A stretch of 64,000 nucleotides of DNA from Leucosporidium creatinivorum (Eukaryota; Basidiomycota; Microbotryomycetes; Leucosporidiales; Leucosporidiaceae). The notes below the pieces were generated by a model. It was not told the origin of the DNA. It did not search any database and saw only the letters and a program-made list of their open reading frames with translations. A program made the translations under genes and the position numbers. The stretch is taken from NCBI GenBank assembly GCA_001600635.1, contig BCKL01000014.1:634202-698201 (forward strand), read 5' to 3'. Of the stretch, positions 5,767 to 53,400 are shown piece by piece; within the stretch, counting starts at the first letter, position 1, and each line of letters opens with the position of its first letter.

Positions 5767-6634
5767 ACCAAGATCTTTTGATCATGTCGGCGTCTGAAGC
5801 TAGTCAGACCCTCGGTTCGCGATGAGCGAGCGCCTCAGACCTTCTCTCGTCTCTAGGGGCGTTTCGAGATCTAGCCGAGCAGCAGCTACCTATCCGCAAA
5901 AAGGTTGACCTTGACCCCGCGAGGAAAAGCCTGGAGGTAATCTCGGTGACTTGAACGAGATTCGAAGGCGGGCGAGCTGGCGAACGGAAGCTCGGTGGAG
6001 AGTTAGGGATGATCTCGGCGCTTCAGGCAGCAGGAGGTGGTCAGTACGTCCTACACAATGCCCCAAGCATTTTTTGTACAGACTGCAGCGATGTAGTAGC
6101 GGCTCAGCATCGGTTTGCATTCGCTGCGAGGGAGCTGCCATATCGCCGAGGTCGAACGGGGGGTTCTACTGCACCGGGAGGACCGTTTCCAGCTCCCCTG
6201 TATCTCTCAAGTTGTCTCTAGACCGCTTTTGTACCCATGCGAGTCGCAGGTGAGGCCCCTTTAGCTGCTCAAGAGGAGGCTGAGGAGGAGAGGGTGGAGC
6301 GGTCGGTGATGAGCTGAGAGGGAAGTAGCTAGGACACCGAGCTGATGCCTTACAGGATAGCCCCCTATGAGCGGTGAGGTGTGAGGGAGGGTTGCTGAGC
6401 TGCAGGTTGCCCCCCAAGGAGGAGCTCGCGGCGAGGCTATAAAATCTTGCTCGCTCAGCTCTTCCTCTCTTTCCTTCCTTCTTCCTCCTGCTCTCGCTCT
6501 TCGCTCCTCCTGCTCTCGCTCTTCGCTCCTCCAAGCTCGCTCGAGTCCACCTTACTACACTCTAACACTCTCAAGAGCCTAGCGTTAGCGCACTACACCC
6601 CTACACCCTCTCTCATCACCCACCACTCAGCAAG
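5767..6634. promoter_or_regulatory. Promoter region of the duplicated gene, with TATA box and 22-bp tandem repeat
   Basis: A consensus TATA box (TATAAAAT, 6438-6445) sits about 190 bp before the ATG at 6635. It is followed by a perfect 22-bp tandem duplication (6483-6526, unit TCCTCCTGCTCTCGCTCTTC plus GC) and a long CT-rich leader typical of basidiomycete 5' UTRs. The part from about 6535 onward is shared with the inverted second copy at the right end of the window. The rest holds no recognisable gene. Confidence 0.6.
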
Positions 6635-7905
6635 ATGCCCACCCTCAGTTTCAAGTCGCTCGCTTCCTCCCTCAAGAAGGCGCCTCGCAAGCTCTTCAAG
6701 CGCAAGAGTAGCAAGGACAAGATGATCATCTCCTCTCCCTACAACATCACCATCACTACCTCGCCTCTCTACGCCAGGCTTCGCGCCGAACAGGTGCGTC
6801 CCCTGCTCGCTTTCTTCTCGCTCGCTTCTCGCACCTTCTGAGCTTCAAGCTGACTCTTCCTCCTCATCCCTACAGACCATCCTCGACGACGAGCCCGAGG
6901 CCCTCACCCACGCGGAAGTTCTCGAGCACCAGCGCCTCGGACTTCAGCTCAAGCTCGACCGGGCCGCCGCCGAGAAGGGGGGATCGGACAAGGAGGACCT
7001 TCGCTCGCCCAAGTTTGCGCCTACGCTGGTCCAGGTGTATGAGGTCAATGAGCGGAGGTGCATGGAGGTGATGGGACCTTGGGGATGGGAGGTTCAGCGC
7101 CCGAGCATCGGAGTCGAGTCGAACGCCGATCAGGCCTTCTCCATCACTACCGCCGACTCGGATTCGGACGCCTCTTCCTCTCCCTCGACTCCTACCTCCA
7201 GTCGCTACTCCTCTCTCTTCGACTCGCCCAGCTCTCACTCCTCGCCCGCCTCCTCCATCTCTTCCCTCCCTCTCCCCGCCGAGCACGCCGAGATCGCTAA
7301 GCTCCTCTTCATCTCTCCCTCGACTACCACCACCTCCAAGGTCGACTCCCGCTCTACCTCCTTCATCCCTCGTCAAGACCTCCACCTCCACCGTCGGTCT
7401 CGGACTCGGCCTTTCCCTCCCTCACGACTTCCGCTCCTCCGCCGAGCACGTCTTCGGACGCTTCCACCCTCCATGCTCCGTCAAGTCGCACAAGCGCAAC
7501 ATCTACACCACTACTCTCATCCCGTCCCCCATCTCTCCCATCTCTCCCACCACCAGCCCTCGCCCCTCTCCTCACCGCTCGCACTCCAGCATCAAGCTCG
7601 GCCCTCGCCTCACCTCCCTCCCGCCTCGGGTCTTCCCCACTTCTCGCACTCGCTTCGGCCGCGTAGGACTCAACAACATCTCCATCATTCGCTCGCAGCC
7701 GAGCTACAGGAGGGGAAGGTGCGGAGTGCCGGTGAGGAGGGTTTGAGGGAGAATGACGAAGGATTCGGTTCGGCTTAGGTTAGGTTGGATTCTCGGGCAG
7801 TTTGATATCAGTGTTGGGTAGTCATCAGTTTTGTAGTCGGTCTTATACCATGTCGTAATATTTATTCGAGCATCTCTCATCTTTCTCGAGTCAAGTTGCG
7901 AGAGC
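6535..7905 (+). repeat. Inverted duplicate segment, left copy
   Basis: Leader, both exons, intron and ~150 bp of 3' flank of the unknown gene match, in reverse complement, about 62615-64000 at the right edge. The copies differ by scattered substitutions and small indels, so this is an older duplication than the Argonaute inverted repeat. Homology fades near the GAGAGCGAG stretch around 7900. The right copy runs off the window. Confidence 0.85.
6635..7778 (+). CDS. Unknown basic/Ser-rich protein, duplicated gene copy 1 (frameshifted relative to copy 2)
   Basis: Exon 1 (6635-6793) encodes a basic N-terminus, MPTLSFKSLASSLKKAPRK..., rich in Lys/Ser; after intron 6794-6875 comes an acidic segment, a motif YEVNERRCMEVMG.WGWEVQ, then Ser/Pro low complexity. 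The paralogue near the right end encodes 344 residues, ending in GVPVRRV. In this copy eight bases present in copy 2 (CTCACCCT) are missing after position 7373. The translation therefore leaves the shared frame and runs to a stop at 7778 instead of the shared stop at 7744-7746. Either this copy is decaying or its tail has been replaced. No known domain; the basic start could bind membrane or nucleic acid, but that is a guess. Confidence 0.6.
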
Positions 7906-9513
7906 GAGAGAACGAGCGCCGAGACGAGAAGGGGCCGAAGCCTTTGCAGTATACCTATCGGCTACTCGCTCAAGCTCGTCGAAGATCTACCAGGACGAGG
8001 ATCATATCCTTCTTGGGTTCTGCGCACGACACAGCTACTCGGAGAGGGCTTGCATCGAACGATGAGAAGCTCAGCTCGGCGACCGTCTCCCAGTCCGACG
8101 ACGCTGCTCCTCAAGGCGATGTGGTCAGAGAAAAGTTGCTCTACGATAGTACGAAGTCTGCGGCTGGTCTTTGGTGAGCTCAACGGAGTAGCTGCACCTA
8201 CTTGAGAGCAGAAAAGAAAGCGAGCAGGGGCTCGGCGAAGACTGCAGATGATTCCGGCTTGCGCAGACCGTCTGGCGACTCCAAGAAAAGCAAGCGGAGT
8301 AAGTATACCATCCTTGAAGCCACCGCGAGCCTCGACTACACCTCTGCAGACTTTGCTGCACCTCGAGAGCGGCTGAGCTAAATCGGGGGGTCCGAGCGTC
8401 AGGCCAAGAGAAGCTCCCCTGTATCCCAGCTGCAGCTCAGCTTCGCCTCTTTCTCTCTTACCACATCTTGCTCAGTGTTGTAGAGCTCCCCCAGCTCTGA
8501 TGACAAGGCTTGTGCAGCTGTCTGCTAGCGTTGTAGAGCTCTTCCCCCTCCTCCCTTCTCCTCTCCCTACGCTTTCCATCCCCTCTCCCCTGTCGTCTCG
8601 CTTCTCTCGCCCCTCAGATAGTTCTATAGGATTCTAGATACTCCCCTACATCCCCCACCTGCCCTCCCTTGCCACTCCCCTCCCTCCCATCCAACCCGAG
8701 CTTTCGCACCTCCCCCTGTCGAGGAGGAGCGACTGGCTCTACCCTCACGCCTCGAGCTAGGCCACGGTCAGTGCGCGCGGTCATGTTTTCAGGCAGCCAC
8801 AGTGCGTAAGACCGGCCTCTTCCCCCACGCCGCTAGCTCATCAAGCGAGGACAGGGCGTCAGACCGGATGGGGGATGAGGGGGTGGAGTCAACGAGGAGC
8901 CGCCGAGCCGAGCTGTAGCTGTAAAAGCTCCGCCGGCTGAGGTGCAGGTTTTGTTTAGATACTTGTTTTAGCTTACTACCACCAGCCGCAAGGCTACTAA
9001 CCACCTGGGCGGCTCACTGAGGTGAGTCGCCCGCAGCAACCGGTCGCCGAAACAGGGTGAGCCCATGAAGTCCGTCGCGAGGGCTATCTCTCAATTGAGA
9101 GCATCTGGCGACAAGCGAAGCACACAGCAGGTGTCAATGTCTCTTGCTGATCTCTGGCTAGCTGCTGGCGAGGTTCAAGAAGCACTCCCGAGCGAGGTGG
9201 CCAGCGCCGAGCATCCTCTCGTTCTCGCTCTCTGGCTTCCTTCTACATGCGCTTGAGCGCGCATTGCTTAGCTGTACGCCATTCACGAGTATCTTGCAAG
9301 TCCTGGTCGAGCTTCCCACTGCCTGTCGAGCCAAATATGAAGTTTCGACGAGAGAGCAGGCCGAGAGACCACTGGCGCCGGACCTTTCTCGCCTCTCCCA
9401 ACCCCTCGCTTGAGCTCGGTCCTCGAAAATGATGCGGATGTGTGGTTTCGTTTTCAAGTTTCCCTCGCCTGCTGCTAATCGTACACCTCGTCGAGTCCAA
9501 CCGACACCGACGC
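7906..9513. other. Long intergenic region, nothing recognised
   Basis: About 1.6 kb between the duplicated gene and the 3' end of PHB1. It contains only short frames without motifs, several CTGTAG/CTACAG hexamers and CT-rich tracts around 8540-8720. No tRNA, transposase or repeat end was found. Confidence 0.5.
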
Positions 9514-13642: not shown

Positions 13643-14148
13643 ATGAACTCCAATCAGAACAAGAAGCCTTCCATGTCGTGTGTTCCCCTCCCTGCCTCCC
13701 TCTTCGGAAGTCTTGAAGCTGACCCGGACCGCTCTGCGTTGAAACAACAGCGAGCTCAAGCTCCGGCGACTGACAGAGCACAACCAGCGCTTACGGGAGG
13801 ATTTGGAGAGGCAGAGGGTTAGGGTCTCGGAGGCTTCTGCTTCGTGAGTCTTTCGAGTCTGTGCTGTAGGGCTGCAGAGAGGCGCAGAGGAGGGCGCGAC
13901 CTGCCACGCTGGGCTTTGTCCTCTGCGCTGTCTGGGCGGTTGCTAGTTGAAGTGGAGAGGCAGGATCGGAGCCGAGGGTACAGTACAACAGAAAAGCTGA
14001 CCAACTGAACGCTACATACAGCCTCATCCGCTATTGCAAGACGACGCGGGATTACCTCTGCCCCAGCGTGTGGGGACCAGTGGAGAAGGGCGCCGACCCT
14101 TATGCCAACCAGAGCAGTGGAGGAGGAGGATGCTGTTTGATTCAGTAG
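13643..14148 (+). CDS. STE18: Heterotrimeric G-protein gamma subunit with CAAX end
   Basis: Three exons (35, 93 and 127 nt; introns 13678-13750 and 13844-14021) give an 84-residue protein, too broken up to appear as a single open frame. It carries the GGL-domain pattern of fungal G-gamma: [20 protein letters not shown] coiled coil, [17 protein letters not shown], then [15 protein letters not shown], and ends GGGGCCLIQ. The final CLIQ is a CAAX box for prenylation, and the preceding Cys is a palmitoylation candidate. It would pair with a WD40 G-beta to anchor it at the plasma membrane in pheromone or nutrient signalling. Intron 2 is long for this locus (178 nt) with a GCTGACC branch site. Confidence 0.93.
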
Positions 14149-14736: not shown

Positions 14737-17236
14737 ATGGCCTCCTCGTTCATCGGTCTCCCTGTACTGCTCTCCCTCCGTTCAGGCCTCTCGCTACGGG
14801 GTACAGTCCAATCCGTCAACGCCGTCCAAGGGACCATCGTCTTGTCCTCCTCGCACTTGTTCCAACCGGGACAGGATACAGAGAGGGAGGAAGAGGGGGA
14901 ATATTTGGGGACGAGGGCTGTAGGGAGGGATGAAGTGAAAGGGTTGGAGGTCGTCAGTGTGCCCAACAAGGGGATCCAGGTGAGTTGTTGCCGTTGAATG
15001 AGAGCGGAAGAGCGAGGGAGTGGGCTGCAGCGTGGGGCATTGCTGCAGTAGATTCTGTAGCACTACAGCTACATCTGTGCACCCTTGCTGCCCCTGCTCG
15101 CCTCCTCCGAAGCCTGCAGATCGACCGCTGACGTCTCGCTCTCTCCCAGCAGCAGCAACAGCAGCCTCGCGAGTCCTACGCCCCTTCACCTTCCTACGAC
15201 CTCCCCGCCCAATCACCTCTCTACACCTCCCTTGAAGAGGATTTGTCCTCCTCCCCTGGTCCTGGATCTCGGCAGCAAAAGCAAAAGACCCCGAGGCGGA
15301 ATGGCGGAGGAGGGAGGAAGGCAAAAGGACAGCAGTATGGTGCTGGTGGAGGGTTCGAGACGGGGAATGAGGCGGATGAGAGTACTGCGGGGTGGGAGGA
15401 GGGAAGGGGTAGTCGGGGAGGGGTGAGTCGGAGCGAGCTTGGTCGGCGCCGAGAAGGGCATCTTGTCGAGAAATCAAGCGCCATAGAGCTGACTTCTGTT
15501 ACTCGCCTCGTTTGCTTCCCTTCTCTAATCGTTTCGCAGGATGGTAGTGAGCTCCCTCGTTCTTCTCTCTTGCTCTTCTGCTCGGCGCTGACCCACCTTC
15601 CCTCACAGCTCGGCGCCGCAACGCACCTCAATCTTCGCACTCGCAGTCATCCTCGTACCATTCCCAACAGCAGCAGCAGCAGCCGCACCCGCATCCCCAG
15701 CAGCCTTCGTTCGACGAGGAGTTCGACTTCGGCGCTGGACTGAGGAGCTTCAACAAGAAGGCGGTCTTTGAGGAGATTCGGGTGGGTGTTGCTTGTCCTA
15801 CTTCTTTCCTTGCTCGTCGCTGACCCTCGCTCTACCTATCCTCCTCGAACCCTCCGCCTATCCTCCCCTCGCTCGCTCGCTCATCCACAGGCGCAAGACC
15901 TAACCGACCCCTCCTCCCTCCTCGTCTCGCACAACCGCTCCTCCCCTCACCCCCACGCCTCAAACCCCAAGATGGTCAAAATGCGGCCCAACGAATCGGT
16001 CCTCTCCTCCGACGAACTGGAGAGGCAACAGGAAGAGGGAAGGGTGGCGTTTGAGAAATTGGCGATGTTCGGAAGAGAGGGAGATGAGAGTGGTGAGGAA
16101 GAGGGAGAGGAGGAGGGCATGATCACGGCGCCTGAGGAGGAGGAAGAGGAGGAGCCGGAGCAGGGAGGAGGGAGTGGGTGGGTTAGTAAGAGGAGCGGAC
16201 GACAGGTGAAGGCGGTTAGTAGGCGGGAGTGGGATGAGGTGCTGGGTGTCGCAGATGTATGTCTATCTCACTCGTTCTTGCTCTCTTACGCTCGCTGATT
16301 TGCTGAGGAACCCCTCGCCGAGCAGATTGAATCGCTCCCCTCGCCCTCCGCACGCCTGCACACCTCCGCACACTCCCTCACATCATTCCTCCTCTCCCTA
16401 CCTTCATCCTCCACCACCAGTATCGTTCTCCTCATCAACGCTCCGACGAAAGGCGAGCTCGTCCTCCGCGCTGGAGTACACTTGCTCAACCGAGGATGGA
16501 AGGTTACGGCGTGGGTCAGTAAGGGCGTAAGCGGCGGAATGGGCGAGGGACTGAAAGAGGGTCTGAGAGTGGTGAGTCGCGTTCTGTCTCGTTTCCCCTC
16601 ATCCTGCCTTCTCGGCGAAGTCAGCTCGTCGAGCTGCTCGACGACAGCAAGCTGACCTTTATTCCACCCTACAGTTCTCCACCTCCTCCGGCCGCATTGT
16701 TCGCTCCCTCGGCGATCTGTCCCCGTCCTACGACATGATCATCGATGCCCTCTCGGACGATGAGGAGGGAGTGCAGATGAGCGTGGAGGAGATGGCGGCT
16801 GCGAGGTGGGCGAATGAGAGGGATGCGGAGGTGGTTTGTGTGGACTGCCCGTGGGGAAGGGAGAGGGAGAGTGGTGAGTCTTGTTTCGCTGTGCTTCCTC
16901 CCTCTTTAAGCCGACTCGCCTCGCTGGGCTTTCGCTCGAGTCGTCCTCGCCATTTCTCTTCGAAACAGCGCTGACCGCTTCCCTACTTTATCATCAGGCG
17001 CACCCCTCACCCCCACCCCCCTCCAACCGACCTACCTCCTCTCCCTCGGCGCTCTCCGGCACCTCTCCATCACCCTCGCCTCCCAATCCTCTTCGGCGCC
17101 CGAGCTCGCAGTATTGGACGTAGGCATCCCACCTCATTTGTGGGCGAGGTGTGGTGTACAGGGCTTCGAGCCTGCGGGCGGACAGTCAGGGATGGTTTGG
17201 GAGGAGGGGTGGTGGACGGGCGTTGTGTGGAGGTAG
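14737..17236 (+). CDS. EDC3: Enhancer of mRNA decapping 3 (EDC3)
   Basis: Eight exons total 581 codons in frame: 14737-14979, 15150-15422, 15540-15543, 15609-15781, 15891-16256, 16326-16571, 16675-16873 and 16998-17236. An N-terminal Lsm-like domain (residues ~1-80: LSLRSGLSLRGTVQSVNA, TIVLSSSHLFQPG) is followed by a Gln/Ser-rich linker. The FDF motif (FDEEFDFGAGLRSFNKKAVF, ~207-228) and an acidic linker come next. The C-terminal YjeF-N Rossmann domain includes SIVLLINAPTKGELVLRAGVHLL, YDMIIDALSDD and LAVLDVGIPPHLW. EDC3 binds Dcp2 and Dhh1 and scaffolds P-bodies. The third exon appears to be only four nucleotides (GATG); without it the FDF part is out of frame. The gene ends about 100 bp before the left arm of the Argonaute inverted repeat. 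Confidence 0.9.
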
Positions 17237-17337
17237 ATAAGTGGATGGATGGAAGGAAGGAGAGAGAGGCATATGATGAATTATACTGCAAGCGGTCTTG
17301 GAAGAGCAGCAGAACGGAGCAGCCAGGCTGGCGAAGC

Positions 17338-20083
17338 GGAAGATGAGGGGAGGAGGAAGCAGAAAGAGAGCAGACCGACCTTCTCGCTTGCTGAGTGAGA
17401 CACTACTGAGGCGCAATCAGATCACAAAGACTTCTCCTTCTGCCATCGAAGCAGGCGTGACCGATACGGGACTGTCCTGCAAGCCAGCAGACGTCGCCAT
17501 TAATCTTCTCGGCGCCGCTCGGACCCTCTCGCTCGGAGATGATGAGGGCACTAAAAGGAGTCGATTGCGAAGGTAAAACGCGGCAGGTAGAGCGAGGAGG
17601 GAGTAACGAGGGGAGAGCCTATCAAGCGAGTGGAGACNGAGATGGTCCACTACATGTAGAAGAGCGCGGCGGCCTGGTTGGGGTGAATGGCCTGCGAGAG
17701 ATTTCGGCGAAGGGCGGGGGAGTCAGCTCTTGTTGGCTCGGCAGCAGCAAATGAAAGAGCCCACCTTGATCTTCTGGCGGTACTCAGTCATCTTGGCACG
17801 GCGCTGCTCGTCGGCCGAGGCTCCCGAGTGCGAAGAGATGGCGGAGGCGGCGTCGTCGGCTTCCGTGTTGAGGTAGAGGCAGGCCCTCGTCGCGACTGTG
17901 GTGGTGTGAGAGGGTCAGTTAGTTTTGATGAGAGACATTTAGGAACTACTCACGGCGATCGGCGTCTGCGAGGGTTCAGGAGCGGGTCAGCTCGATTCGG
18001 CGAGAGGTCGGGGAGACAAGCCTGCGAGGAGCTGGGAAGGGAGAGACGTACAGTAGGCAGGCGTAGCGTAGCTGACGGACCTCGTGCAGCGAGCGTAGGT
18101 GTAGCAAAGGTTGTAGACGAGCTGCTGGAGGACGTCGGCCGAGAACTTGGAGTCGTCGACGAGAACGGTGTAGTGCGCCGAGCGACTCGTGCCGAGGAGG
18201 GAAGCGTGCGATTGAGTATACCAGTCGAACGTGTAGGCGCTGGTAATTTGCTGGTCGACGGTGGTCTGTTGGGGAAGGCGAATCAGCGCTCAGTGCGGCG
18301 ACCTCTAAGCTAGCTCGCAAGTCGACTCACTCCGGCTGGGACGTTTCCGGTCCTATCGGCGTCTCCGTCACGCACAGGGAAGAGGCTAATGTGGTGCCTC
18401 TTGCCGCAGACGATGTAGGTGATCTCGCTGCGAAAGGGGAGCGAGGTCAGTTTCGGCGTTCTCAGCTTGGCGTTCTTCGACCTCAGAGAACGTCAAGAAG
18501 CTTACGGTTTGTAGGCCGTCTCCAACGTCTGGCACGCAGCCCTGATAGCACTGATCTCTTGATCGATGACTTGAGCGAACTGACCCTGTGTAGGTGTGAC
18601 AGCAGGCGTCAGCTCGGCGCTCGCAAGAAGGCAAGCTCGGCGCTCGTAAGCTGTTAGGTACAAAGGTACGTACCTCGGAGACGCCGTCTCGGAAGAAGAT
18701 CAACTTTCGAAGGAGGGATATCAGCTCGAACGTAATGGCGAGCTGTCGAGAGCGATGACTTGCGCGCTGAGGCTTGACTTTGAGGCTCTTGTGGAATTGC
18801 CTGAGCAGTTCTTTCAGCATCTCGCCGATCTCACCGATGTACTCTTGCCTCGAGGGCTGGAGCTTGATCGACGACCCGTAGTTGGTGAACTGTGGAGGAG
18901 AGGGAAGGTCAGCGCGGGTGGAGTCGACGACCGCCGAAGTAGCCTTGCCTCCTTGTTGATCGTTCCGACGAGGGCGGCAACGGAAGGAGCGAACGATCCG
19001 GGCGCCGGGTGGGAGACGTCGATACCCTGTGGCGGACGGAATGGTCAGCGAGGACTGAAGCTAGCCGAGCGAAGAGCGCACGAAGATCATCTGCGAAAGC
19101 ATGCGGTCAGCTAGATGTCGCTCGACGAAGGGCAAAGATACCAACGGTGGGTTTTCCGGCGACGGCGGGACCGAGGTTCACGACCGAGTTGGTCCCGTTC
19201 AGCTTGACGTTGACCTTCATGGCCACATTGGCGTAGTCTGAGAGGCAGCGCCGAGGTCAGCTTCTCCTCGCCAAGTTCAAGCCTTCGAGACGTACATTGA
19301 GGGTTGCCGCGCTTGACCTTGGGTATAGCGAGGCACTGAGTAGAGACGCCGACTTCTTGATCGCCGAAGCGCTGAGAGCGAGGAAGATCAGCGAGGAGTT
19401 CGCCGAGTCGGCTGCGACTGGCTCACCTTGATCGCCGCGTATTCGTCGCAGGGCTTGCGAGGGAGGTAGCAGACGAAGAGTTGAGGGATCTGGGCGAACT
19501 GCTTCTTGGCCTCGTCCTTCATGTACTGAGCGATGTTGTTCGGGTGGACTCCCGCTCCGTAGACGATGCTCGGCTGCTGAGTAGCGACGCGGATACCTGC
19601 GAAAGGGCGAGAGTGAGAACCGCTCATCCGGCGAAGAGAGACGAATGAAGCTCACCAGTCTTGGAGAGGCCCTCGATGAAGCCTTGCAAGCTCGTCTGCA
19701 CGTCGCGGCGAGGAAAGTACTGCTCTCGGTCGAAGACAAAGACCATCCAACGCTCAATAGGAATGGCGGTCTTGGAGAATTGAAGTCCTCGCAAGTCCCA
19801 GGTTCCGGCGCCGGGAGTGACGGTCTTGTTCTTGTAGCTGACTTGGGGCGGAGGGAGGATGCGAGCGGGCACTTCCATCGGGGTCGTCTCGATCTGGAGT
19901 CCCCACTGGTTGAGGGGAGAGCCGGCGTTGGTTAGTCGGATCTTCTCGATGCCCTTGCGAAGGAGGGGAATGCGCTCGCGCGGTCTGTGGGTCGGAAAGC
20001 GAAGGGTCAGCTCGGCGCTCGGCGTTGAGGAGAGCGATGAGGAAGACGTGCGCGATAGTCGTGAACTTGAGCGACTCGGCAGT
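17338..20083 (-). repeat. Left arm of 2,746-bp perfect inverted repeat
   Basis: Every position x here pairs with 44731-x in the right arm (24648-27393). No difference was found in the stretches compared, including introns, 3' flank and the ambiguous N (17638 here, 27093 there). At the outer edge the match ends with one mismatch followed by a further ten matching bases (to 17328); at the inner edge identity decays after 20083. Spacer between the arms is 4,564 bp. Confidence 0.95.
17650..20083 (-). pseudogene. Inverted partial copy of Argonaute (end of PAZ to stop codon), no 5' half
   Basis: This minus-strand copy contains the L2, MID and PIWI coding exons and all their introns exactly as in the full gene, from residues [10 protein letters not shown] to the final ALFYM stop. 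It lacks the start, N domain and most of PAZ. On its 5' side the sequence at 20084 onward is unrelated to an Argonaute exon, and no promoter or alternative start is evident. It cannot make a whole Argonaute. Transcription on the plus strand through it, for instance read-through from EDC3, would be antisense to Argonaute mRNA. It may also not exist in the genome if the arm is an assembly duplicate. Confidence 0.8.
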
Positions 20084-20944
20084 TTGGGTGGGACGTAAGG
20101 ATGATGAGTGAGGACAAAGTGCTTCCAGATCGCTCGGTTTAGCTTAGGAGGGCGTCTCTTCTACGGCGCGATCTTGACCGGTGTGGCGAGAGACCAGTGG
20201 CGCGAGGAGGATAGGTAGCGGGCTAGCTGACATCGCCATGAGAAGACCATCTCTGTTCCCCCGCGGGACAGCAGGTGTAGCCATCGCAGGCTGGGCTGGG
20301 CGGAAAGCAGGAGCTCGGCCATCCTTTGCTCGGCAATTTGCTGGTGGAGCAGTCTGCCGGAGGGGAGAGTTGACTCCTTCTTCTGTCTGACAGCACATTC
20401 TTGAGCCGCTTTTCGAGCTACAGCAAGCTTTCAGCCTACCGGCTCGACTACAGCCTGCCGCCGTTCGCAGCTTCCCTCGCCGAGGTAGCCTTGTGCAGGC
20501 AAAGGTGGCTAGCGATGTAGTCCACTATGCTATACTCAAGAGGAGCTACACAGCTCTTGCTGCGCTACATCTTCCCTCCCACCCTTAACCGATAGACTCA
20601 TCTCTCGCGCCTCAACGTCTCTTTCCCTCCTCGCATTTCCTCGTCTTTCGTTCTCTCGACTCGCCGTGTTCGTGGTCCCTGGATTCTGATACTGTACAGG
20701 AGGAGACCTTACTGCTAGCCGGGCTCATCTCAACGGAAGCGCGCGGCCGTCCTAGCGGGCTTGCAGTTGACGCAGCTTCTGTTCTCGCGCTTAGGTGAGT
20801 TCTCAGCCGGTTTGAGCCCGCACTGCAGCAGGAGGACGTGATGCTCAGCCAGTAGAAGCGCTGCACGCTGTCGGAGCTTCACCAGCGCCATCGCTGACCC
20901 TTCCGCCGCTCACAGATCCTCTGAACCCTGACCTCAAAGCCGAA
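20084..20944. other. Intergenic spacer inside the inverted repeat
   Basis: About 860 bp between the left arm and the mannosyltransferase start. No gene was recognised; CT-rich around 20570-20660. The last ~100 bp contain CAG/GCTGACC elements like those of introns, so a leader intron for the mannosyltransferase is possible. Confidence 0.45.
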
Positions 20945-22509
20945 ATGGCCTACAACACGCGCTCCCTCTCTCCGAAACGAGGAGTAGCAAGACACATCGA
21001 CCGACCTCCGCTCCCCTTCCCCGTCCGGATCTCCATCTTCGCCCTCCTGCTCGTTAGCTCGGTCGTTCTCATCACCTACCTCAATCCTTCACCGTGGCTC
21101 TCAAATCACCCCGCCATCTTCCTCCGACCACCACCGCCAATACCTTCACTCTCGACCTCCGTAACGCCGCCCGTTAAAGGCTGCCAGAACGTCGAGGTCA
21201 CCCGGCTCGAGCGGAGGGAGAAGGCGGCGATTGTGCTCTTGCTGAGGGAGCAGGACCTGGACGACCTTCTCCCGACGCTGAGGAACTTTGAGCAAAGGTT
21301 CAACGCTGCCTTCCGCTATCCTTACGTCTTCATCTCCTCGCCCGACGAAGGGCCCTTCTCCCCCTCCTTTCGATCGTCGGTCCTCGCTAGTCTTCCCTTA
21401 GATGCGGCGGTCAAATGGTCGGTGGTGGATAAAGAGCATTGGCGGATACCGGCGTGGATGGATGAAGAGGAAGTGCGTAGAGGGCTTAGGGAGCAGGAGC
21501 AGCGAGGAGTGCAGTACGCTGGGAGGGAAGGCTATCACCACATGATCCGATGGTACTCGGGGCTGTGGGCTCGGGAGGAGGTACTGCAGAAGTACGATTG
21601 GTACTGGCGCTTGGAGCCAGGGGGTACGTCTTCTCTTGGCTTTGACAACGAGGGCCGAGCTGAGCCCTTCTTCGCCGAACTGCAGTTCGCTTCTACTGCA
21701 CCATCACCTACGACCCCTTCCGCTTCATGGCCCTCCACAACAAAGTCTATGGCTTCGTCATCGCCATCGTGGAGAACATGAACACGATTCCCACCCTCTT
21801 CTCGACGATCAAGAAGTACGCCCAGAGGAAGGGGATCAAGACCGAGGGCAAGGCGCTGTGGGAAGAGTTCTTGAGTAAGAAGGAAGGTGGTGACGAAGAG
21901 GAGGAGTTTACGGGGTGCCACCAATGGACCAACTTCGAGGCAAGTTGTCTATATCCCTGCAGGAGCGGTCGCGAAGGAGGAGCTGCTCGGCGCTGACCTC
22001 CCTCTTGCCTGTAGATTGGAGATCTTCGCTTCTTCCGCTCGGCTCCGTATCAGGATTTGTTTGACGAGCTGGATGCTGCCGGAGGATTTTACACCGAGCG
22101 GGTCAGTTCATCTGCTCCTTCAAGTCGAGCGCCGAGCCGGGCTGATCTTCGACCCTCGCTTCTTTCGCAGTGGGGAGATGCACCGATCCGTTCGCTCGCT
22201 CTTGGCCTTCTTACCGACGTGGATCAAGTGCACTAGTGCGTCGCTCGCTCGTTATACCCTCCCGCCTACCTCTCCCGTCAGCGCCGAGCGTCGCTAACCT
22301 CTCCTCCCTCCAACAGCTTTGAGGACTTTGCCTACCAGCACGACTGGTTTATGCACTGTCCTACCAAGAAGTCGGCCCTCGGCTGCGACTGCCAGTGCCC
22401 GGCTTACTCGAAGGATCCGCTGCCCAAGAACGAGCTTACGGATGTCGACAACGATTGGCGGTTCAGCTGTTTGCCGAGGTGGAGGAAAGCAACGGAAAGG
22501 GTTTGGTAG
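20945..22509 (+). CDS. KTR: GT15-family alpha-1,2-mannosyltransferase (KRE2/MNT1/KTR type)
   Basis: Five exons (introns 21624-21685, 21940-22014, 22102-22170, 22236-22316) encode 425 residues. It has a short cytosolic tail, a signal-anchor helix (PVRISIFALLLVSSVVLITYL, ~27-47) and a luminal catalytic domain. Diagnostic GT15 stretches are KAAIVLLLREQDLDDLLPTL, FNAAFRYPYVFISS, YHHMIRWYSGLW, YDWYWRLEPGVRFYCTITYDP, MNTIPTLFSTIKKYA, CHQWTNFEIGDLRFFRS and GGFYTERWGDAPIRS. Near the C-terminus is HYFEDFAYQHDWFMHCP. Such enzymes extend O- and N-linked mannans in the Golgi. Intron 2 begins with GC. The gene lies wholly in the spacer between the two Argonaute repeat arms. Confidence 0.95.
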
Positions 22510-22796
22510 GCTGTAATGGAGCATGGCTTATCTTACAGCTCCGGGCTACCTCGAGACGAAGCTGAGAGAGCGAACCCCCGAGCGAGCGCCGAGCCCCTTG
22601 AGGTTGACTTTGGAGCCGTTTAGAGTACAGCTAGCACCTGCAGCTCTACTCTACCTTTCTCCACCTATCGTTTCGACAGCCAGAAAATCTGCTCGACCCA
22701 AGTCGTCAGCGAAAGGTCACAGCGCGTCCGCCTTCACGCTTTCCTTCCCGCTTCTCACCCTACTTCTCGCTGCACCTCACCCAGCGACCACCAGCG

Positions 22797-25700
22797 ATGT
22801 CGACACTCACGCAGCAGATGGGGCAGCTCGCGCTCACTCCCGAACCCATGCAGCGTCCTGGTTTCGGAACGTAAGTTGCATCGCTTGGTGGGGGTCGAGC
22901 TCAAAAGGCGGGCGCTGGAAGGGCTGGCGAGGTGCAGGAAGCAACAAAGCAGTGTTTGGATACTCAGAGAGCTTTCTACGGCTGCTCCCGGCGGTTCCCC
23001 TACATTTGGAGCCGTTCCTTCGAATGCTCCAGGTTCACTGACCCTCCGCTTCGCTCTTCGCAGCCGTGGCAAGGCCATCATGGTCAAGGTGAACGCCTAC
23101 AAGGTTGTTCCCCCCAAGAACCTCACGGCCTACCACTACGACATCAAAATCGCGCCCGAGGAGCGTCGCCCTCCTCGGCTCAACCGCGCGATTTGGAAGG
23201 AGCTTGTCCTCACCCACCAGCCTTTCGGCCCCGTGTCCTGCGTTTATGATGGAAGGAACATGGCGTACTCGGCGGCCAAGCTTCCAACCTACAATGAAGC
23301 ATTCAAGGTCGCTTTACCCGAGTCCGACGGTTCGCCAGCCTCGAAGGGCAACGTCTTCAAGATTACCGTGAGTAGACATCTTCTGCACTAGATATCGGTG
23401 TTAGAGTAGTTTCAAGCACTGCCTCTGATTCACGCAGCATTGCCAAGCTGCACCGTGGAGCCCTCACCGAGCTCGCCGAACTTGAGACCGACTAGCTCTT
23501 CCCTTGCCAGATCACTTTCATTCGCCCCATCGACATCGGAGCCGTCGCCACCTTCGTTACTGGTGGTCGTGGTGCTGCCAACTTGGATCCCGGCCTCGTC
23601 ATGAGCGCCGTACAAGCCAGTGAGCGGTTCCTCACTTCTTCAAGGCAACGCCGAGCTGACCGCTGGCTCCTCCCGACCACCACGAACAGTGAACGTCGCT
23701 ATCCAGCACGGTCCGATGTTGACCTTCCCCAGCCGTGGCGCTTCCTTCTTCTTGAAGGAGGACCAGACGAGGATCAGCAAGGGTTCGTTCGCGCCGAGCT
23801 TCCACCGAGCCTCTTCCTGTGCTGACTCCTTCCTCTCTCATCTCTCAAAGGTCTCGAGATGTGGCGCGGGTACTACAGTGAGTTTTCAGACACGCTGCCT
23901 CTTCTCGCTCATCCTCGCGAGCTCGGCAGCTGACCAGCCGACCTTTCTGCCTTCGCAGCCTCCCTCCGTCTCGGCCCCGGACACGCCTTCATCAACCTCG
24001 ACCTCAGTTCGCAACCTATGATTATGAGCGGTAACCTCCCCGACGTAATGATCGCCTTCGCCCGAGCCAAGATGCAGAGCTTCGGACCCAGCCAGCTTTC
24101 GACGAAGACGATGCCTCCTCAGGCTGCCATCGAGCTGTCGAGGTGAGTATGTCTAAGAGTGTCAGAAGCTCTGTCTTTTGCAGTGGGCGGAGGGGAAGGG
24201 TTGACAATGACCATCTCTCTCTGCTTGCTTCGCCTCGGCTTCTCCACAGATTCCTTCGCAACTTGAAGGTCATCATCAAGGTCAAGGACCAGCACGGCAG
24301 AGAGCAGCACCGCAAGATTAAGGAGTTGGCCAAGCACAGCGCTGCCGACTCCAAGTTCCAGCTCGAGGACGGTCCGCAGACCTCAGTCAAGGTGAGGAGC
24401 TCAGTAGTTCCTCGGCGCCCGATGGAGACGCTGACTCGTTTCTCATCGCAGGAGTACATGAAAGCGCAGTACGGCGTTACACTTCAGCATCCCGACTGGG
24501 TAAGTACCATCCTTTTGGCGTCGGCAAAAGCTGACGGCTTGCTTTCGCTAGCCCTGCGTCCGCGTCAGCAAGGTCGCCCTCTGGCCCATCGAGCTCTGCG
24601 AGATCCAAGTCGGTCAGAAGTACGGCAAGAAGCTCGATCCCACGCAGACTGCCGAGTCGCTCAAGTTCACGACTATCGCGCACGTCTTCCTCATCGCTCT
24701 CCTCAACGCCGAGCGCCGAGCTGACCCTTCGCTTTCCGACCCACAGACCGCGCGAGCGCATTCCCCTCCTTCGCAAGGGCATCGAGAAGATCCGACTAAC
24801 CAACGCCGGCTCTCCCCTCAACCAGTGGGGACTCCAGATCGAGACGACCCCGATGGAAGTGCCCGCTCGCATCCTCCCTCCGCCCCAAGTCAGCTACAAG
24901 AACAAGACCGTCACTCCCGGCGCCGGAACCTGGGACTTGCGAGGACTTCAATTCTCCAAGACCGCCATTCCTATTGAGCGTTGGATGGTCTTTGTCTTCG
25001 ACCGAGAGCAGTACTTTCCTCGCCGCGACGTGCAGACGAGCTTGCAAGGCTTCATCGAGGGCCTCTCCAAGACTGGTGAGCTTCATTCGTCTCTCTTCGC
25101 CGGATGAGCGGTTCTCACTCTCGCCCTTTCGCAGGTATCCGCGTCGCTACTCAGCAGCCGAGCATCGTCTACGGAGCGGGAGTCCACCCGAACAACATCG
25201 CTCAGTACATGAAGGACGAGGCCAAGAAGCAGTTCGCCCAGATCCCTCAACTCTTCGTCTGCTACCTCCCTCGCAAGCCCTGCGACGAATACGCGGCGAT
25301 CAAGGTGAGCCAGTCGCAGCCGACTCGGCGAACTCCTCGCTGATCTTCCTCGCTCTCAGCGCTTCGGCGATCAAGAAGTCGGCGTCTCTACTCAGTGCCT
25401 CGCTATACCCAAGGTCAAGCGCGGCAACCCTCAATGTACGTCTCGAAGGCTTGAACTTGGCGAGGAGAAGCTGACCTCGGCGCTGCCTCTCAGACTACGC
25501 CAATGTGGCCATGAAGGTCAACGTCAAGCTGAACGGGACCAACTCGGTCGTGAACCTCGGTCCCGCCGTCGCCGGAAAACCCACCGTTGGTATCTTTGCC
25601 CTTCGTCGAGCGACATCTAGCTGACCGCATGCTTTCGCAGATGATCTTCGTGCGCTCTTCGCTCGGCTAGCTTCAGTCCTCGCTGACCATTCCGTCCGCC

Positions 25701-27081
25701 ACAGGGTATCGACGTCTCCCACCCGGCGCCCGGATCGTTCGCTCCTTCCGTTGCCGCCCTCGTCGGAACGATCAACAAGGAGGCAAGGCTACTTCGGCGG
25801 TCGTCGACTCCACCCGCGCTGACCTTCCCTCTCCTCCACAGTTCACCAACTACGGGTCGTCGATCAAGCTCCAGCCCTCGAGGCAAGAGTACATCGGTGA
25901 GATCGGCGAGATGCTGAAAGAACTGCTCAGGCAATTCCACAAGAGCCTCAAAGTCAAGCCTCAGCGCGCAAGTCATCGCTCTCGACAGCTCGCCATTACG
26001 TTCGAGCTGATATCCCTCCTTCGAAAGTTGATCTTCTTCCGAGACGGCGTCTCCGAGGTACGTACCTTTGTACCTAACAGCTTACGAGCGCCGAGCTTGC
26101 CTTCTTGCGAGCGCCGAGCTGACGCCTGCTGTCACACCTACACAGGGTCAGTTCGCTCAAGTCATCGATCAAGAGATCAGTGCTATCAGGGCTGCGTGCC
26201 AGACGTTGGAGACGGCCTACAAACCGTAAGCTTCTTGACGTTCTCTGAGGTCGAAGAACGCCAAGCTGAGAACGCCGAAACTGACCTCGCTCCCCTTTCG
26301 CAGCGAGATCACCTACATCGTCTGCGGCAAGAGGCACCACATTAGCCTCTTCCCTGTGCGTGACGGAGACGCCGATAGGACCGGAAACGTCCCAGCCGGA
26401 GTGAGTCGACTTGCGAGCTAGCTTAGAGGTCGCCGCACTGAGCGCTGATTCGCCTTCCCCAACAGACCACCGTCGACCAGCAAATTACCAGCGCCTACAC
26501 GTTCGACTGGTATACTCAATCGCACGCTTCCCTCCTCGGCACGAGTCGCTCGGCGCACTACACCGTTCTCGTCGACGACTCCAAGTTCTCGGCCGACGTC
26601 CTCCAGCAGCTCGTCTACAACCTTTGCTACACCTACGCTCGCTGCACGAGGTCCGTCAGCTACGCTACGCCTGCCTACTGTACGTCTCTCCCTTCCCAGC
26701 TCCTCGCAGGCTTGTCTCCCCGACCTCTCGCCGAATCGAGCTGACCCGCTCCTGAACCCTCGCAGACGCCGATCGCCGTGAGTAGTTCCTAAATGTCTCT
26801 CATCAAAACTAACTGACCCTCTCACACCACCACAGTCGCGACGAGGGCCTGCCTCTACCTCAACACGGAAGCCGACGACGCCGCCTCCGCCATCTCTTCG
26901 CACTCGGGAGCCTCGGCCGACGAGCAGCGCCGTGCCAAGATGACTGAGTACCGCCAGAAGATCAAGGTGGGCTCTTTCATTTGCTGCTGCCGAGCCAACA
27001 AGAGCTGACTCCCCCGCCCTTCGCCGAAATCTCTCGCAGGCCATTCACCCCAACCAGGCCGCCGCGCTCTTCTACATGTAG
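22797..27081 (+). CDS. AGO1: Argonaute, full length, predicted slicer-competent
   Basis: A many-intron gene encoding the complete N-PAZ-MID-PIWI layout. It starts [20 protein letters not shown]; the N domain includes [19 protein letters not shown] and the PAZ end is [20 protein letters not shown]. The L2/MID part has [20 protein letters not shown], then [25 protein letters not shown] carries [11 protein letters not shown] (first catalytic Asp), [13 protein letters not shown] (second catalytic Asp), [26 protein letters not shown] and YYADRLATRA. In the last motif Asp occupies the fourth catalytic position, where many eukaryotic Argonautes have His. Exons 25641-25649 (9 nt) and 26766-26777 (12 nt) are micro-exons. 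Introns at 24680, 25783 and 25968 start with GC. Argonaute loads small RNAs in RNA interference. The 3' two thirds are duplicated in the inverted arm. Confidence 0.95.
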
Positions 27082-27393
27082 TGGACCATCTCNGTCTCCA
27101 CTCGCTTGATAGGCTCTCCCCTCGTTACTCCCTCCTCGCTCTACCTGCCGCGTTTTACCTTCGCAATCGACTCCTTTTAGTGCCCTCATCATCTCCGAGC
27201 GAGAGGGTCCGAGCGGCGCCGAGAAGATTAATGGCGACGTCTGCTGGCTTGCAGGACAGTCCCGTATCGGTCACGCCTGCTTCGATGGCAGAAGGAGAAG
27301 TCTTTGTGATCTGATTGCGCCTCAGTAGTGTCTCACTCAGCAAGCGAGAAGGTCGGTCTGCTCTCTTTCTGCTTCCTCCTCCCCTCATCTTCC
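24648..27393 (+). repeat. Right arm of 2,746-bp perfect inverted repeat
   Basis: It covers the Argonaute coding region from the end of PAZ to the stop plus about 310 bp of 3' flank, ending 117 bp before the start of the next gene. It mirrors the left arm base for base, with N at 27093. The inner end falls inside an exon, so the duplication did not follow gene or exon borders. Confidence 0.95.
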
Positions 27394-27509
27394 CCTTCGC
27401 CAGCTCGAGTCGCTTCTCTTCTTCCTACTCAGCACTCTCCACCACCAGAGGCCATCCTTACACCGTGTATCGCTCGCTAGCCACCATCGCCCGCCGCCCT
27501 CTCTTCGCC

Positions 27510-29541
27510 ATGCCATCTTCCGCCGCTCCCCCCTCATCCTCCGCCGCTTCTCCTACAATTTCCGCCACTCCTACTTCGTCGCCCATCCAAAACGTTGTCG
27601 TTCTCGGCGGATCATACGCTGGTGGTCGTGCTGCTGAACAGCTCGCCAAGCTGCTTCCTGAAGGGTATCGAGTAGTGCTCGTCGACAGGCAAAGCCACTT
27701 CAACCGTGAGTCTCAAATCATTGCATCTCGCCATCCCTGCTCGCCTACAGATTCTGCACCTCTCCATCGCCCAGCAATTCACCGCCAAGACGCGACCGCG
27801 GCCGACCTCGGCTGAGCCAAATCGGCGGTGGGCGGAAATTCTGCTGAGGTGCAGATGGGAGCAGAGCAAGCTGCAGAGGATAGACTGTTCCGCTACAGAA
27901 CAACGCCCAATCGAGAAGAGTTGTAGGCTAAACTCTCCCCCTTCGCACTCGCCCAGATCTCTACCTCTTCCCTCGCGTCGCTGTCGTCCCAGGCCACGCC
28001 AACAAGGTCTTTGTACCCTTCACCAACTTTCTCAACGCACCCGCCCTCCCACCACCCGCCACTCTACCTCCTCCATTGCTCACCGACCCGAAGACCACCA
28101 TCAAGGGCCTCAAAAGCACCTACGTACACGCCGGCGTGACCAAGATTGGCGAGGGATTCATCGAGGTGGATAGGGATCTTGGTGTCGAGGTGACTGGAGA
28201 GGAAGCCGAGCCCGTCAAGGATGTGGATGAGGAGGAGGTCGCCGAGCTCGGCGAGAAGCTGGAGAGCTTGGGCATGACCGAGGAGGGTAGCAGCAGGCGT
28301 AGGATCCCTTACGAGTACTTGGTCTACGTGAGTCGTCGTCCTTCGAGCTTCTGAGTACCGTACTTGCCCGCTGACATCGACCCAACCCTCGCAGGCTCTC
28401 GGCTGCAAGCTTCCTCCACCGCTCGTCACTCCTGCACGCACCAAGCAGGACGGAGTATCCCATCTCGAGGTAAGTTATCACATTCTCCGACCCGTTCACA
28501 CCCTACGCCCTGCTAACATCCTTCCTCCGTAGGCTCAAACCAAGCGCATCGCCGAAGCCTCCTCCATCCTCATCGCCGGCGCCGGTGCTCTCGGCATCCA
28601 ATACGCTTCCGACATCGCCGACCTCTACAACAACCCCGAGAATGCTGAGCACCGTCCTGCAGGCTGCGTTTCGCCCAAGAAGATCACCATCGTCCACTCG
28701 CGGGACCGCTTCCTTCCCCTCTACAAACAAGAGGTTCACGACGAGGTCTACGGTCGACTGACGAAGTTAGGTGTGGACGTTGTGCTCGGAGAGCGGTTGG
28801 CGCTGCCGAGTGTGGAGGAGGAGCGCGAGACCTTTGGCGAGACGAGGACGGTAACGACCAAGGCAGGCAAGGAGATCGAATACGACTTGCTGGTAAGTCT
28901 CTTGTCTTCCAACACACTGAGCACGATCGCTGACGGTCCTTCGCTCTTCAGATGCGCTGCACCGGTCAGTCGCCCAACTCGGCTCTGCTCGGCGAGTTCA
29001 TCCCCGAGGCGCTCAACGAGTGGGGCTTCGTCAAGGTCCAGTCGACTACCCAAGTCGATGCAGGAGCTTCCACTAGCAAGACCGACAACATCTACGTCGT
29101 CGGAGATGTACGTCTTTCATTTCTCGCTTTCCTTCCCCTCGAGCAGCTTGCTAACCTCGTCGCTCGCTACAGGTCGCCGACGCTAAGGTCATCAAGGCCG
29201 GCCACACTGGTTGGAACCAGGCCGAGATCACCATCAAGAACATCATGTCCTCCATCATGTGTGCCGAGGGCCATGAGCCGACGCTGGCGCACTACAAGCC
29301 TTCGCCACCTCAGATCAAGGTCACTCTCGGGCTGGTGAGCTTCATCTCCTTGATTCAGCTCTGTTGTAGGGTCTGAGCTGACCCTTACTGCCCCACGCAG
29401 AACCACTCCTGCTCCGAGCTCCTGCCTTCGATGGACGCCGAAGAGACCATCGTCGACAAGAAGGCGGATGGACCCATCGACAGCTACTGGTCGGTCATTT
29501 GGTCGAGGATGGGGATTAGTACAGAGGATCTCACGGTATGA
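27510..29541 (+). CDS. AIF1: FAD/NAD(P)H oxidoreductase of the AIF/FSP1 (AIFM2) family
   Basis: Seven exons (introns 27706-27956, 28328-28394, 28470-28532, 28893-28951, 29108-29172, 29335-29400) give 486 residues in frame. The N-terminal Rossmann fold binds FAD (VVVLGGSYAGGRAAEQL), a second dinucleotide fold binds NAD(P)H (ILIAGAGALGIQYASDIA), and NIYVVGDVAD is the C-terminal FAD-contact motif. LMRCTGQSPNS is also typical. Relatives reduce quinones and act in lipid-peroxide defence or mitochondrial cell death. In-frame codons continue upstream without an ATG, so the start at the first ATG is preferred. The first intron (251 nt) is long. The promoter is squeezed between the repeat arm and this start. 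Confidence 0.9.
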
Positions 29542-50448: not shown

Positions 50449-53400
50449 ATGGCTACCGGAGAAGCTCGCGAATCGCCTGCCATGGCTCTCGTCACTGCTG
50501 GTGAGCAGCTCGCTCTCTCCGTCTCATCTCCCGCTCTCCGCCGGTTGGAGATGATGAGCAGCAGCTGACCCCGCTCGTTCTCCTACAGAGATGGCTGCTG
50601 CCACTCTTGCTAGTGACAGGGAGGTCATCGCCAGGCCTGGTTTCGGCAAGTGAGTACTTCCCTACAGCTTCTCGCCTCGTGATGAGCGCGGACGAGGGCC
50701 GAGTGCGGGCAGAAGCGGTGCAGGTGTTGGTGGAAGTCGCTAGATCTTGCTGAGCTGGATAAAAGACGTAGGGGCTGTATGACAGTCGCTGCATACGACT
50801 CGAAGCGCACTCGCTCTGCTCTCTCGGTGAAGGCGGAACGAGTTTGAGCTAACGAGCGCTATGACCTTGTTGCTTTCTCGCAGGGGAGGTCGCAAGTTCC
50901 CCGTCACGGTCAACGCCTACGAGGTTACTCCTCCTCAGCTTACTGTGAGTGAACCGCTTGCTTTGGTGGAGAAGGAGGCGAGGTGGACGGTGCTGACGGT
51001 TCTTCCGCGTCCGAACTCTCGCAGTGCTACCACTACGACGTCAAAATCTTGCCCGACAAGCCTACCGTGAGTTATACATCACTGTAGACGAGTCGGGCCG
51101 TCTCAAGAAGGGCAGTTCGTGTGCTCAGACAGCTGACCTCATGCTCGGTGCTCCTTCCTCAGACCCCTCCTCGTCTCAACCGCCAGATTTGGGAGTTCCT
51201 TGACAAGCAGATGGTAGGTAGAGATGCTACTGGTCATGCTGCATTCGATCGCCTGCCAAAAGAGACGACTCCCAGCCGGAACCCGGCGCGAATCGAGCTC
51301 GGCGATGGTCAAACTCGGCGCTGACCATCTCTATCGCTCTCAGAACATCTTCGGAGGCGTTGCGGTGTGCTATGATGGTAGAGCCAGTAAGTTTCGCTCC
51401 TCCAAGTCGTCTCATATACGGCGACGGAGGCTAGTTCTGACCTTCGCTTCGATTCGCGATCTTGTCCGAATTGCAGTGGCTTACTCGCGTAAGTAGTGAT
51501 CTGTGTTCCAGCGGAACGAGTACGAGACTGACTTCCGGTCCCTTTTGTAGCCAAGTCTCTCGGCGCCGACGAAGGCAAGTGGGAGATCGACCTGCCTGAG
51601 GACGACGGCACCAAGAGCGCCAAGGGCCGTCACTTCACCGTCATCATCAAGTTCACTCGCACCATCGACATTGGTACGTTCGGCTCGTTGATTCTCTTGT
51701 TCGACTTCGCTCGAAGCCGGCATCTCGAGTGGGCGCGATGAGCTGACTGTCATGCCCCACTCGTACAGGCCGCCTCGCCGTCTTCGTCCGTGGTGAGGGA
51801 GCTGGTGGAGGCAACTTCCCCGACGCTTCGGAGGTGCAGAGCGCGACTCAGGCTCGTGAGTCCGCTACGGCTCGGCAATGTCGGGGTGCTCCCTCACCGC
51901 TTCTATCGCTCTCCCTCATCCTCGCAGTCAACGTCCTCGTGTCTCATGGACCCAGCAGTCAGTATCTCGACTTCTGGACCTCTTTAAGCGACCCACTGAC
52001 GCCAGCTTCGAACAGTGCTCTACCCTAACCGCGCCGCCTCTTTCTTCCTCCCTCCCGAGAACCGTCAGGCGGCGAGTTTGCTCAAGGGTCTCGAGGTGAG
52101 TCGACCATTTTGCTCTTGAGGTTGCACTCTGCTGTAGCGCAGACGTCCAGCCGCCGACCTCAGGAGCTGAAAGCTGACCTCGACCTGCTCGGCGCTCTTC
52201 CCCTCATCGCAGATGTGGCGCGGCTTCTACACCTCGCTACGCCCCGGCCCCAACAAAATCTTCGTCAACGTCGACATTGCCTCTCAGCCCATGTACCAGT
52301 CGGGCAACCTCGCCGACGTCGTCCTCGACTTCCTCCGCGCTGCGACTCGTGGCATCACTCTCAACGATCTCGCGGCGAACAACATCCCTCCTCGTGGCTA
52401 CATCGAGCTCGACCGCTTCTTGAGGTCGGTCAAAGTGCAGCTCAAGGTCAAGGACAAGGATGGGAATGAGCCTGTGCGCAAGATCAAGCAGTTCGAGAGG
52501 GCGAGCGCTTCGGCTTCCTCGTTCCAGGTCGAGGATGGCACGACTCAGACGGTCGAGGTGAGTTCGGAGGTTCTCTCAACGATGCTACTCTCGCTTCATG
52601 CTCTTCCCACAGTCCTACTTCAAGGCGCAATACGGCGTCACCCTCAAGAGGCCCGACTTCGTACGCTGACTTACGCCGAGCAGCTCGGTCGAGCAAAAGC
52701 TGACTCGCCTTCGCGTCTACAGCCCTGCGTTCGTGTCTCCAAGGTCGCTCTTTGGCCTCTCGTGAGTTTTCGAACTCGTCGTCAACCTCGTCTCCCTACA
52801 GAACGCTGACCGGCTCTCCCTCTGCTCCCCCTGCAGGAGCTCTGCGAAGTCGAGGCTGGCCAGAAGTACTCCAAGAAGCTCGACCCCGATCAGACAGCTG
52901 CTGGTGAGTACTCCTCGCGGAATTCCTGCCTCGTCTCCGCTGAAACTGACCTCCCCGCCTCGCCGTCGCCTCCCCCTCCCCCTCCTCGCTCCCCTTCGCC
53001 GAACTCAGCCATCAAGCTCACGACCGTCAGCCCGAGGGACAGGGTTCCCATGCTCAACGTCGGACTCAAGCGTATCCAGCCCGACGGCGGCTCGGCCAAG
53101 AGCGCCCTCGCCCAGTGGGGAGTCACCATCAAGCAGGAGCCCATCGTCATTCAGGCGCGCGAGCTTCAACCTCCCGTGGTCACCTACAAGCGGTGCGCTG
53201 GAGCTCGGATCTTGATCTCAGTAGTCTGTTGTACTGATCCTCAACTTCGGCCAACAGCCCCGTGCAGCCGCGCGAGGGCGTTTGGGACATGAGGGGAGGG
53301 CACCGGTTCTACCTCCCCGCCAAGATCGACCGCTGGCTCATTCTGGTCGTGAGTAGCCTTTCACTACTCTTCTCGTGCTGGACCGAGCTGACTGTCGCGT

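Follow-up and report, generated by a model that had tools for sequence, protein, structure and literature searches.

We analysed a 64,000-nt stretch of the genome of Leucosporidium creatinivorum (C14:634202-698201, within an assembly of 27.7 Mb in 63 contigs; hereafter the window), in which the 3' half of a complete Argonaute gene, AGOc, recurs in inverted orientation between an EDC3 gene and a mannosyltransferase gene. Positions 17338-20083 match 24648-27393 in reverse complement without a single mismatch in 2746 bp, counting one N pair that matches itself; with mismatches allowed, the arms reach 17327-20093 and 24638-27404, a match of 2767 bp in which all 3 mismatches (17337, 20084 and 20087) fall within the terminal 10-11 bp. 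Chance was rejected as the source of a match of 2746 bp (blastn E = 0). The core arms are separated by a spacer of 4564 bp, and the left arm begins 91-102 nt after the EDC3 stop, whose last base is 17236. These measurements bear out an earlier note on this DNA, which had reported an inverted repeat at this place, introns included, with arms ~4.6 kb apart and the left one starting ~100 bp past the EDC3 stop, in antisense orientation for EDC3 read-through; the right arm forms the 3' portion of an Argonaute gene that is complete. A genome search with the arm returned six matches, namely the two arms and short stretches of the related genes AGO-A and AGO-B. Because these account for all genome-wide matches, the arm is not a dispersed repeat, and capture by a transposon was rejected on this search, no dedicated transposon search having been made.

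AGOc was modelled by hand (Table 1), and a spliced alignment that used its own 864-aa protein as query returned the same exons, which serves as a consistency check only. Pfam matches to ArgoN, ArgoL1, PAZ (residues 262-362), ArgoL2, ArgoMid and Piwi (residues 519-812) all exceeded their cut-offs, the protein aligns with human AGO2 across residues 16-848, and its best protein match is P0001 of Sporobolomyces johnsonii (56% identical), followed by Microbotryum (55%). Under the catalytic tetrad rule for Argonautes, the four catalytic columns of AGOc read D, E, D and D, the same as in Microbotryum Argonautes. In a tree of 26 proteins, made up of seven loci of this genome and 19 of the 41 proteins found by protein search, AGOc clusters with three Microbotryum Argonautes (support 0.984), and the presence of N, PAZ, MID and PIWI domains together with the catalytic tetrad places it in the AGO clade of eukaryotic Argonautes. 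The right arm covers residues 360-864 of AGOc and 312 bp beyond its stop codon, so that the description of the left arm as a copy of the catalytic half holds for the repeat itself, but leaves out decayed exon-2 sequence that also abuts its inner end.

Directly inside the left arm, in an order and orientation that continue the arm, we observed a decayed fragment of Argonaute exon 2 that differs from AGOc at 19 of 88 bp (blastn E 9e-15 within a 137-kb stretch) and is joined to the perfect arm by a short diverged strip of exon 9. The switch from ~80% to 100% identity thus falls inside homologous sequence and not at the edge of an insertion. No match to the exon-2 block was found by blastn in AGO-A, in AGO-B or in the Argonaute pairs on contigs C4 and C25. 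Since exon 2 is followed in order by exon 9 to the 3' flank, this is an Argonaute copy from which ~1.4 kb has been lost; the left arm is an old, decayed, internally deleted inverted copy, only the 3' half of which looks new. The suggestion of a very young palindrome accordingly finds no support, the left copy belonging to an older inverted duplicate, ~20% diverged and shortened by ~1.4 kb, and a clean young palindrome is rejected because the diverged relic stands at its inner edge.

Table 1. Features at the Argonaute inverted repeat (window coordinates)
Feature	Position	Strand	Remarks
EDC3, 3' part (FDF and YjeF_N matches)	15710..17236	+	stop 17234-17236; read-through antisense to Argonaute
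Outer edge of the left arm	17327..17337	-	1 mismatch, 10 matching bp, then homology ends
Left arm, copying Argonaute residues 360-864 with their introns and 312 bp of the 3' flank	17338..20083	-	antisense to EDC3 transcription
N in left arm	17638	.	mirror of 27093
Diverged exon-9 strip	20084..20093	-	10 bp, 2 mismatches; between perfect arm and relic, overlapping the relic by 4 bp
Decayed Argonaute exon-2 fragment (relic), residues 52-81	20090..20177	-	in-frame stop; 78.4% identical to 23144-23231
Mannosyltransferase gene of the spacer, Glyco_transf_15 (KRE2/MNT1-type)	20945..22509 (end approximate)	+	Pfam
AGOc, complete Argonaute	22797..27081	+	23 exons, 864 aa ending FYM; hand-made model, open throughout
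AGOc exon-2 stretch matched by the relic	23144..23231	+	blastn
Right arm: last PAZ residues, linker 2, MID, PIWI and 3' flank of AGOc	24648..27393	+	
N in right arm	27093	.	mirror of 17638
Pyridine nucleotide-disulphide oxidoreductase gene downstream of AGOc	27510..29338 (extent approximate)	+	Pfam

Within the near-identical tract, 0 of 2745 comparable sites differ, versus 19/88 in the exon-2 relic and 2/10 in the exon-9 strip; if the 0/2745 is true, the tract has diverged by less than 0.11% (at 95%), compared to ~22% for the sequence beside it. An identity jump of this kind inside contiguous homology points to gene conversion, since an insertion would not give it. With rather more confidence than doubt, we infer a recent non-allelic conversion in which the working AGOc was copied onto the 3' half of its inverted relic, and collapse in the assembly may have raised the apparent identity of the arms. 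On this account, an old inverted copy of AGOc, ~4.3 kb long and reaching at least from exon 2 to the 3' flank, would have lain between EDC3 and the mannosyltransferase gene, would have decayed to a pseudogene that lost ~1.4 kb of the sequence linking exon 2 to exon 9, and would recently have had its 3' half rewritten from AGOc as template, in a tract of ~2.75 kb that begins inside exon 9 and stops ~10 bp short of the end of homology. As AGOc is open over 864 codons with all six domains, it is likelier to have been donor than recipient, and the direction of conversion was probably from AGOc to the relic. Conversion is expected to leave a near-identical tract bounded by diverged homologous sequence, which was found at the inner end only, the outer end keeping just 11 bp of homology. 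The locus would then be an inverted duplicate homogenised by conversion, of a known kind but in an unusual gene, and, provided that the near-identity of the arms is real, it would show cleanly how a functional gene can overwrite its own inverted pseudogene.

Other Argonaute copies in this genome bear on this explanation. A Piwi search gave 14 matches on three contigs, which we grouped into at least eight Argonaute loci, the left relic included; this number is our own grouping of the matches and a lower bound. C14 carries AGO-A, the left relic, AGOc and AGO-B, while C4 and C25 carry one inverted pair each. With three inverted pairs (C14, C4 and C25) and one direct pair (AGO-A/AGO-B), the idea that Argonautes here always occur as inverted pairs is weak. 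AGO-A (C14:611669-616032) is nearly complete in spliced alignment and has an alanine in the catalytic glutamate column. AGO-B, at 50606-54504 on the forward strand of the window, has ~86% DNA identity to AGO-A (C14:612.4-615.0 kb) in direct orientation; their homology ends near residue 690-700, and AGO-B thus lacks the PIWI end and the last catalytic residue.

The arms of the C25 pair (30.4-35.0 kb and 77.1-81.7 kb) differ at 11.5% of 4515 aligned sites, and contain a conversion-like tract of 488 bp with a single difference. At fourfold sites, 0/84 differ inside this tract, which was chosen post hoc, versus 78/302 outside it (Fisher 6e-10), and a run of 84 such sites was reached in 0/10000 shuffles. 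The arms of the C4 pair (858-865 kb and 880-888 kb) differ at 4.8% of 7235 aligned sites; identical runs alternate there with stretches diverged by 5-20%, next to N gaps. Fisher tests on runs likewise picked post hoc gave 0.001 for AGO-A/AGO-B and 0.005 for C4, and a run shuffle over all sites flagged five of six alignments (including AGO-A/AGO-B and C4, with two from the C4 repeat), leaving the direct repeat at 642/702 kb unflagged. Conversion between Argonaute copies is therefore well supported in one further pair, that on C25, and not in all of them. The gene models on C4 and C25 are automatic and doubtful in some parts, with a stop in the copy C25a, and we draw no inference from them about activity.

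Several observations weigh against conversion at the AGOc locus, or against reading too much into its signs. The relic measures only 88 bp, and homology does not resume in the 768 bp upstream, where ~40% of 200 shuffles scored as high. A genome search with 20000-20945 recovered only itself and the edge of the arm, missing the exon-2 match that blastn had found, so that other copies of the exon-2 block may have escaped this search as well. Three pairs were tested, and the strict fourfold shuffle was weak for AGO-A/AGO-B (610/10000) and for C4 (354/10000). The all-site shuffle also flagged a repeat without Argonaute (640/698 kb), and is therefore not specific. The mirrored N leaves the identity of the arm interior open to being a product of assembly; in the C4 pair, one identical run holds all three of the mirrored N pairs, and the longest identical run begins at a gap edge in both arms.

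Positions 17638 and 27093 are the only Ns in the window, without a run of N at either junction of the left arm, and because they mirror each other, both arms probably carry one assembler consensus. Their exact identity is thus possibly overstated: the "perfect" repeat of the earlier note stands as 0 mismatches over 2746 bp in the assembly, but perfection is not established. The C4 pair, with its three mirrored N pairs all in one of four long identical runs and one further, unmirrored N, suggests that two near-identical arms can receive a single consensus in this assembly, whose "perfect" repeats call for caution, as they can be one consensus used twice. A lone N is nevertheless no proof of collapse. 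The supposition that a single N always signals a collapsed repeat was not upheld, as a search with 401-bp stretches around the Ns at C4:895592/895598 and C14:726050 found no second copy of them. The earlier note had also raised the worry that the left arm is an assembly product, and this survives in part: the mirrored Ns here and in C4 suggest a reused consensus, but a wholly false arm would have had to land by accident flush on an Argonaute relic and to continue it in order and orientation.

The most serious rival, to which we give an appreciable though clearly smaller chance, is assembly collapse, in which a real inverted copy similar to AGOc had its interior filled with the AGOc consensus, the perfect identity being an artefact and only about a read length at each junction needing to be real. 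Besides the mirrored Ns here and in the one C4 run, the confinement of all 3 mismatches to the terminal 10-11 bp is what would be expected if only sequence anchored in unique flank had been resolved. Collapse, however, requires a copy similar enough to merge, which must therefore still exist, and high true identity next to a flank of 78-80% still implies some homogenisation. Moreover, the similar tract on C25 carries no N, none being present in the whole 70-kb stretch there, and has one resolved difference, and single Ns occur where no second copy was found. An error of scaffolding or gap filling that created the left arm entirely, EDC3 and the mannosyltransferase gene being true neighbours with only the relic between them, would also account for the mirrored N, and the assembly does have N gaps elsewhere, in C4; yet the absence of an N run at either junction, with only two single Ns in the window, and the flush fit on the relic make this very improbable. 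Still harder to credit is a young partial inverted duplication that landed by chance beside an unrelated older Argonaute relic. Such an insertion would agree with the fact that, at either end, perfect identity and ungapped homology stop within ~10 bp of each other, but it would have had to meet the relic in matching order and orientation, with 10 bp of diverged exon-9 sequence ahead of it. The likelihoods that we attach to conversion and to its rivals are not all mutually exclusive.

A different kind of alternative grants the arms and gives them a function, as a selected, self-limiting device of RNA interference (RNAi), in which EDC3 read-through or another transcript would supply RNA antisense to AGOc, from which Dicer would make small interfering RNAs (siRNAs) that lower Argonaute mRNA, while conversion keeps the arms matched; the earlier note had suggested a built-in negative feedback on Argonaute level. 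The left arm is antisense and lies close behind the EDC3 stop, and EDC3 read-through beyond ~100 nt could, by the geometry of the locus, be complementary to the Argonaute 3' flank. Complementarity to the spliced AGOc mRNA extends over 1830 nt of exon and 3' flank in all, the longest perfect blocks being 354 nt (last exon and 3' flank, with one N) and 329 nt (inside one exon). As at inverted-repeat siRNA loci, a near-perfect repeat occurs together with matches to RNAi machinery, here Piwi, RNA-dependent RNA polymerase (RdRP; genome-search matches on C2, C3, C4 and C9) and RNase III (six matches on four contigs, five over the cut-off, none singled out as Dicer). On the other hand, neutral conversion explains the state of the relic, and the conversion-like tract on C25 joins two long gene copies (automatic models, one with a stop) rather than a gene and an antisense fragment. 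For one transcript to form the hairpin, it would have to run through the two arms, the mannosyltransferase gene and all of the Argonaute gene. We thus consider a selected device improbable, and are equally doubtful of its fuller form, in which an antisense near-copy of the catalytic half would be refreshed repeatedly by conversion and siRNAs from EDC3 read-through would close a homeostatic self-silencing loop. Conversion of the relic needs no selected function, and would probably lead to nothing more than incidental antisense RNA when EDC3 is read through. Antisense copies could nonetheless have consequences in an RNA-silencing gene, and the locus raises the question of whether a genome with RNAi genes tolerates a 2.7-kb antisense copy of its own Argonaute, with siRNAs arising from it.

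In the literature searched, no comparable inverted duplicate of an Argonaute came to light, which does not prove that none exists; parts of the arrangement have parallels. Palindromes with arm-to-arm conversion, on the human Y and on the W chromosome of the willow Salix purpurea (PMC7023750), likewise hold inverted gene copies in which highly identical stretches stand beside diverged ones. In the willow palindrome W.P2, a homologue of ARGONAUTE 4 is present as a single copy (PMC7023750). Unlike in those palindromes, the tract here is 2.75 kb long and one of the arms is the relic of a pseudogene; nor is a sex-chromosome context in evidence, a match to the STE3 pheromone receptor lying on C25 (at 436 kb) and not on C14. 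Hairpin RNAs of Drosophila simulans originated in an exon fragment that lies inverted at a distance of one gene from its parent (PMC10317233); the AGOc relic is similarly an inverted, incomplete copy of a protein-coding gene at such a distance, and could be a source of siRNAs against its parent. A hairpin RNA locus, however, requires both arms in one transcript and demonstrated Dicer-dependent siRNAs, whereas here the arms are 4.56 kb apart and the parent gene is itself one arm. Ago2 has been duplicated repeatedly in the Drosophila obscura group (PMC6690552), and M. lychnidis-dioicae has two Argonautes, one Dicer and one RdRP (PMC4469406), compared to at least eight Argonaute loci, relic included, on three contigs in this genome.

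EDC3 is an mRNA-decay (P-body) factor, and lies two genes away from Argonaute (15710-27081). Its assignment is based on a YjeF_N match over the Pfam cut-off and an FDF match (E 9e-4) below its own; the stop codon assigned to it at 17234-17236 ends a frame that is open from upstream of 17000. Upstream of EDC3, a match to a G-gamma (GGL) domain lies at 14008-14142 on the forward strand. The window also contains a second inverted repeat, between 5868-7908 and 62622-64000, the latter continuing past the window end, with 95% identity over ~2 kb. Its copies are 54 kb apart, the left one is without a Pfam match, and a third, partial copy occurs on contig C63, at 78% identity.

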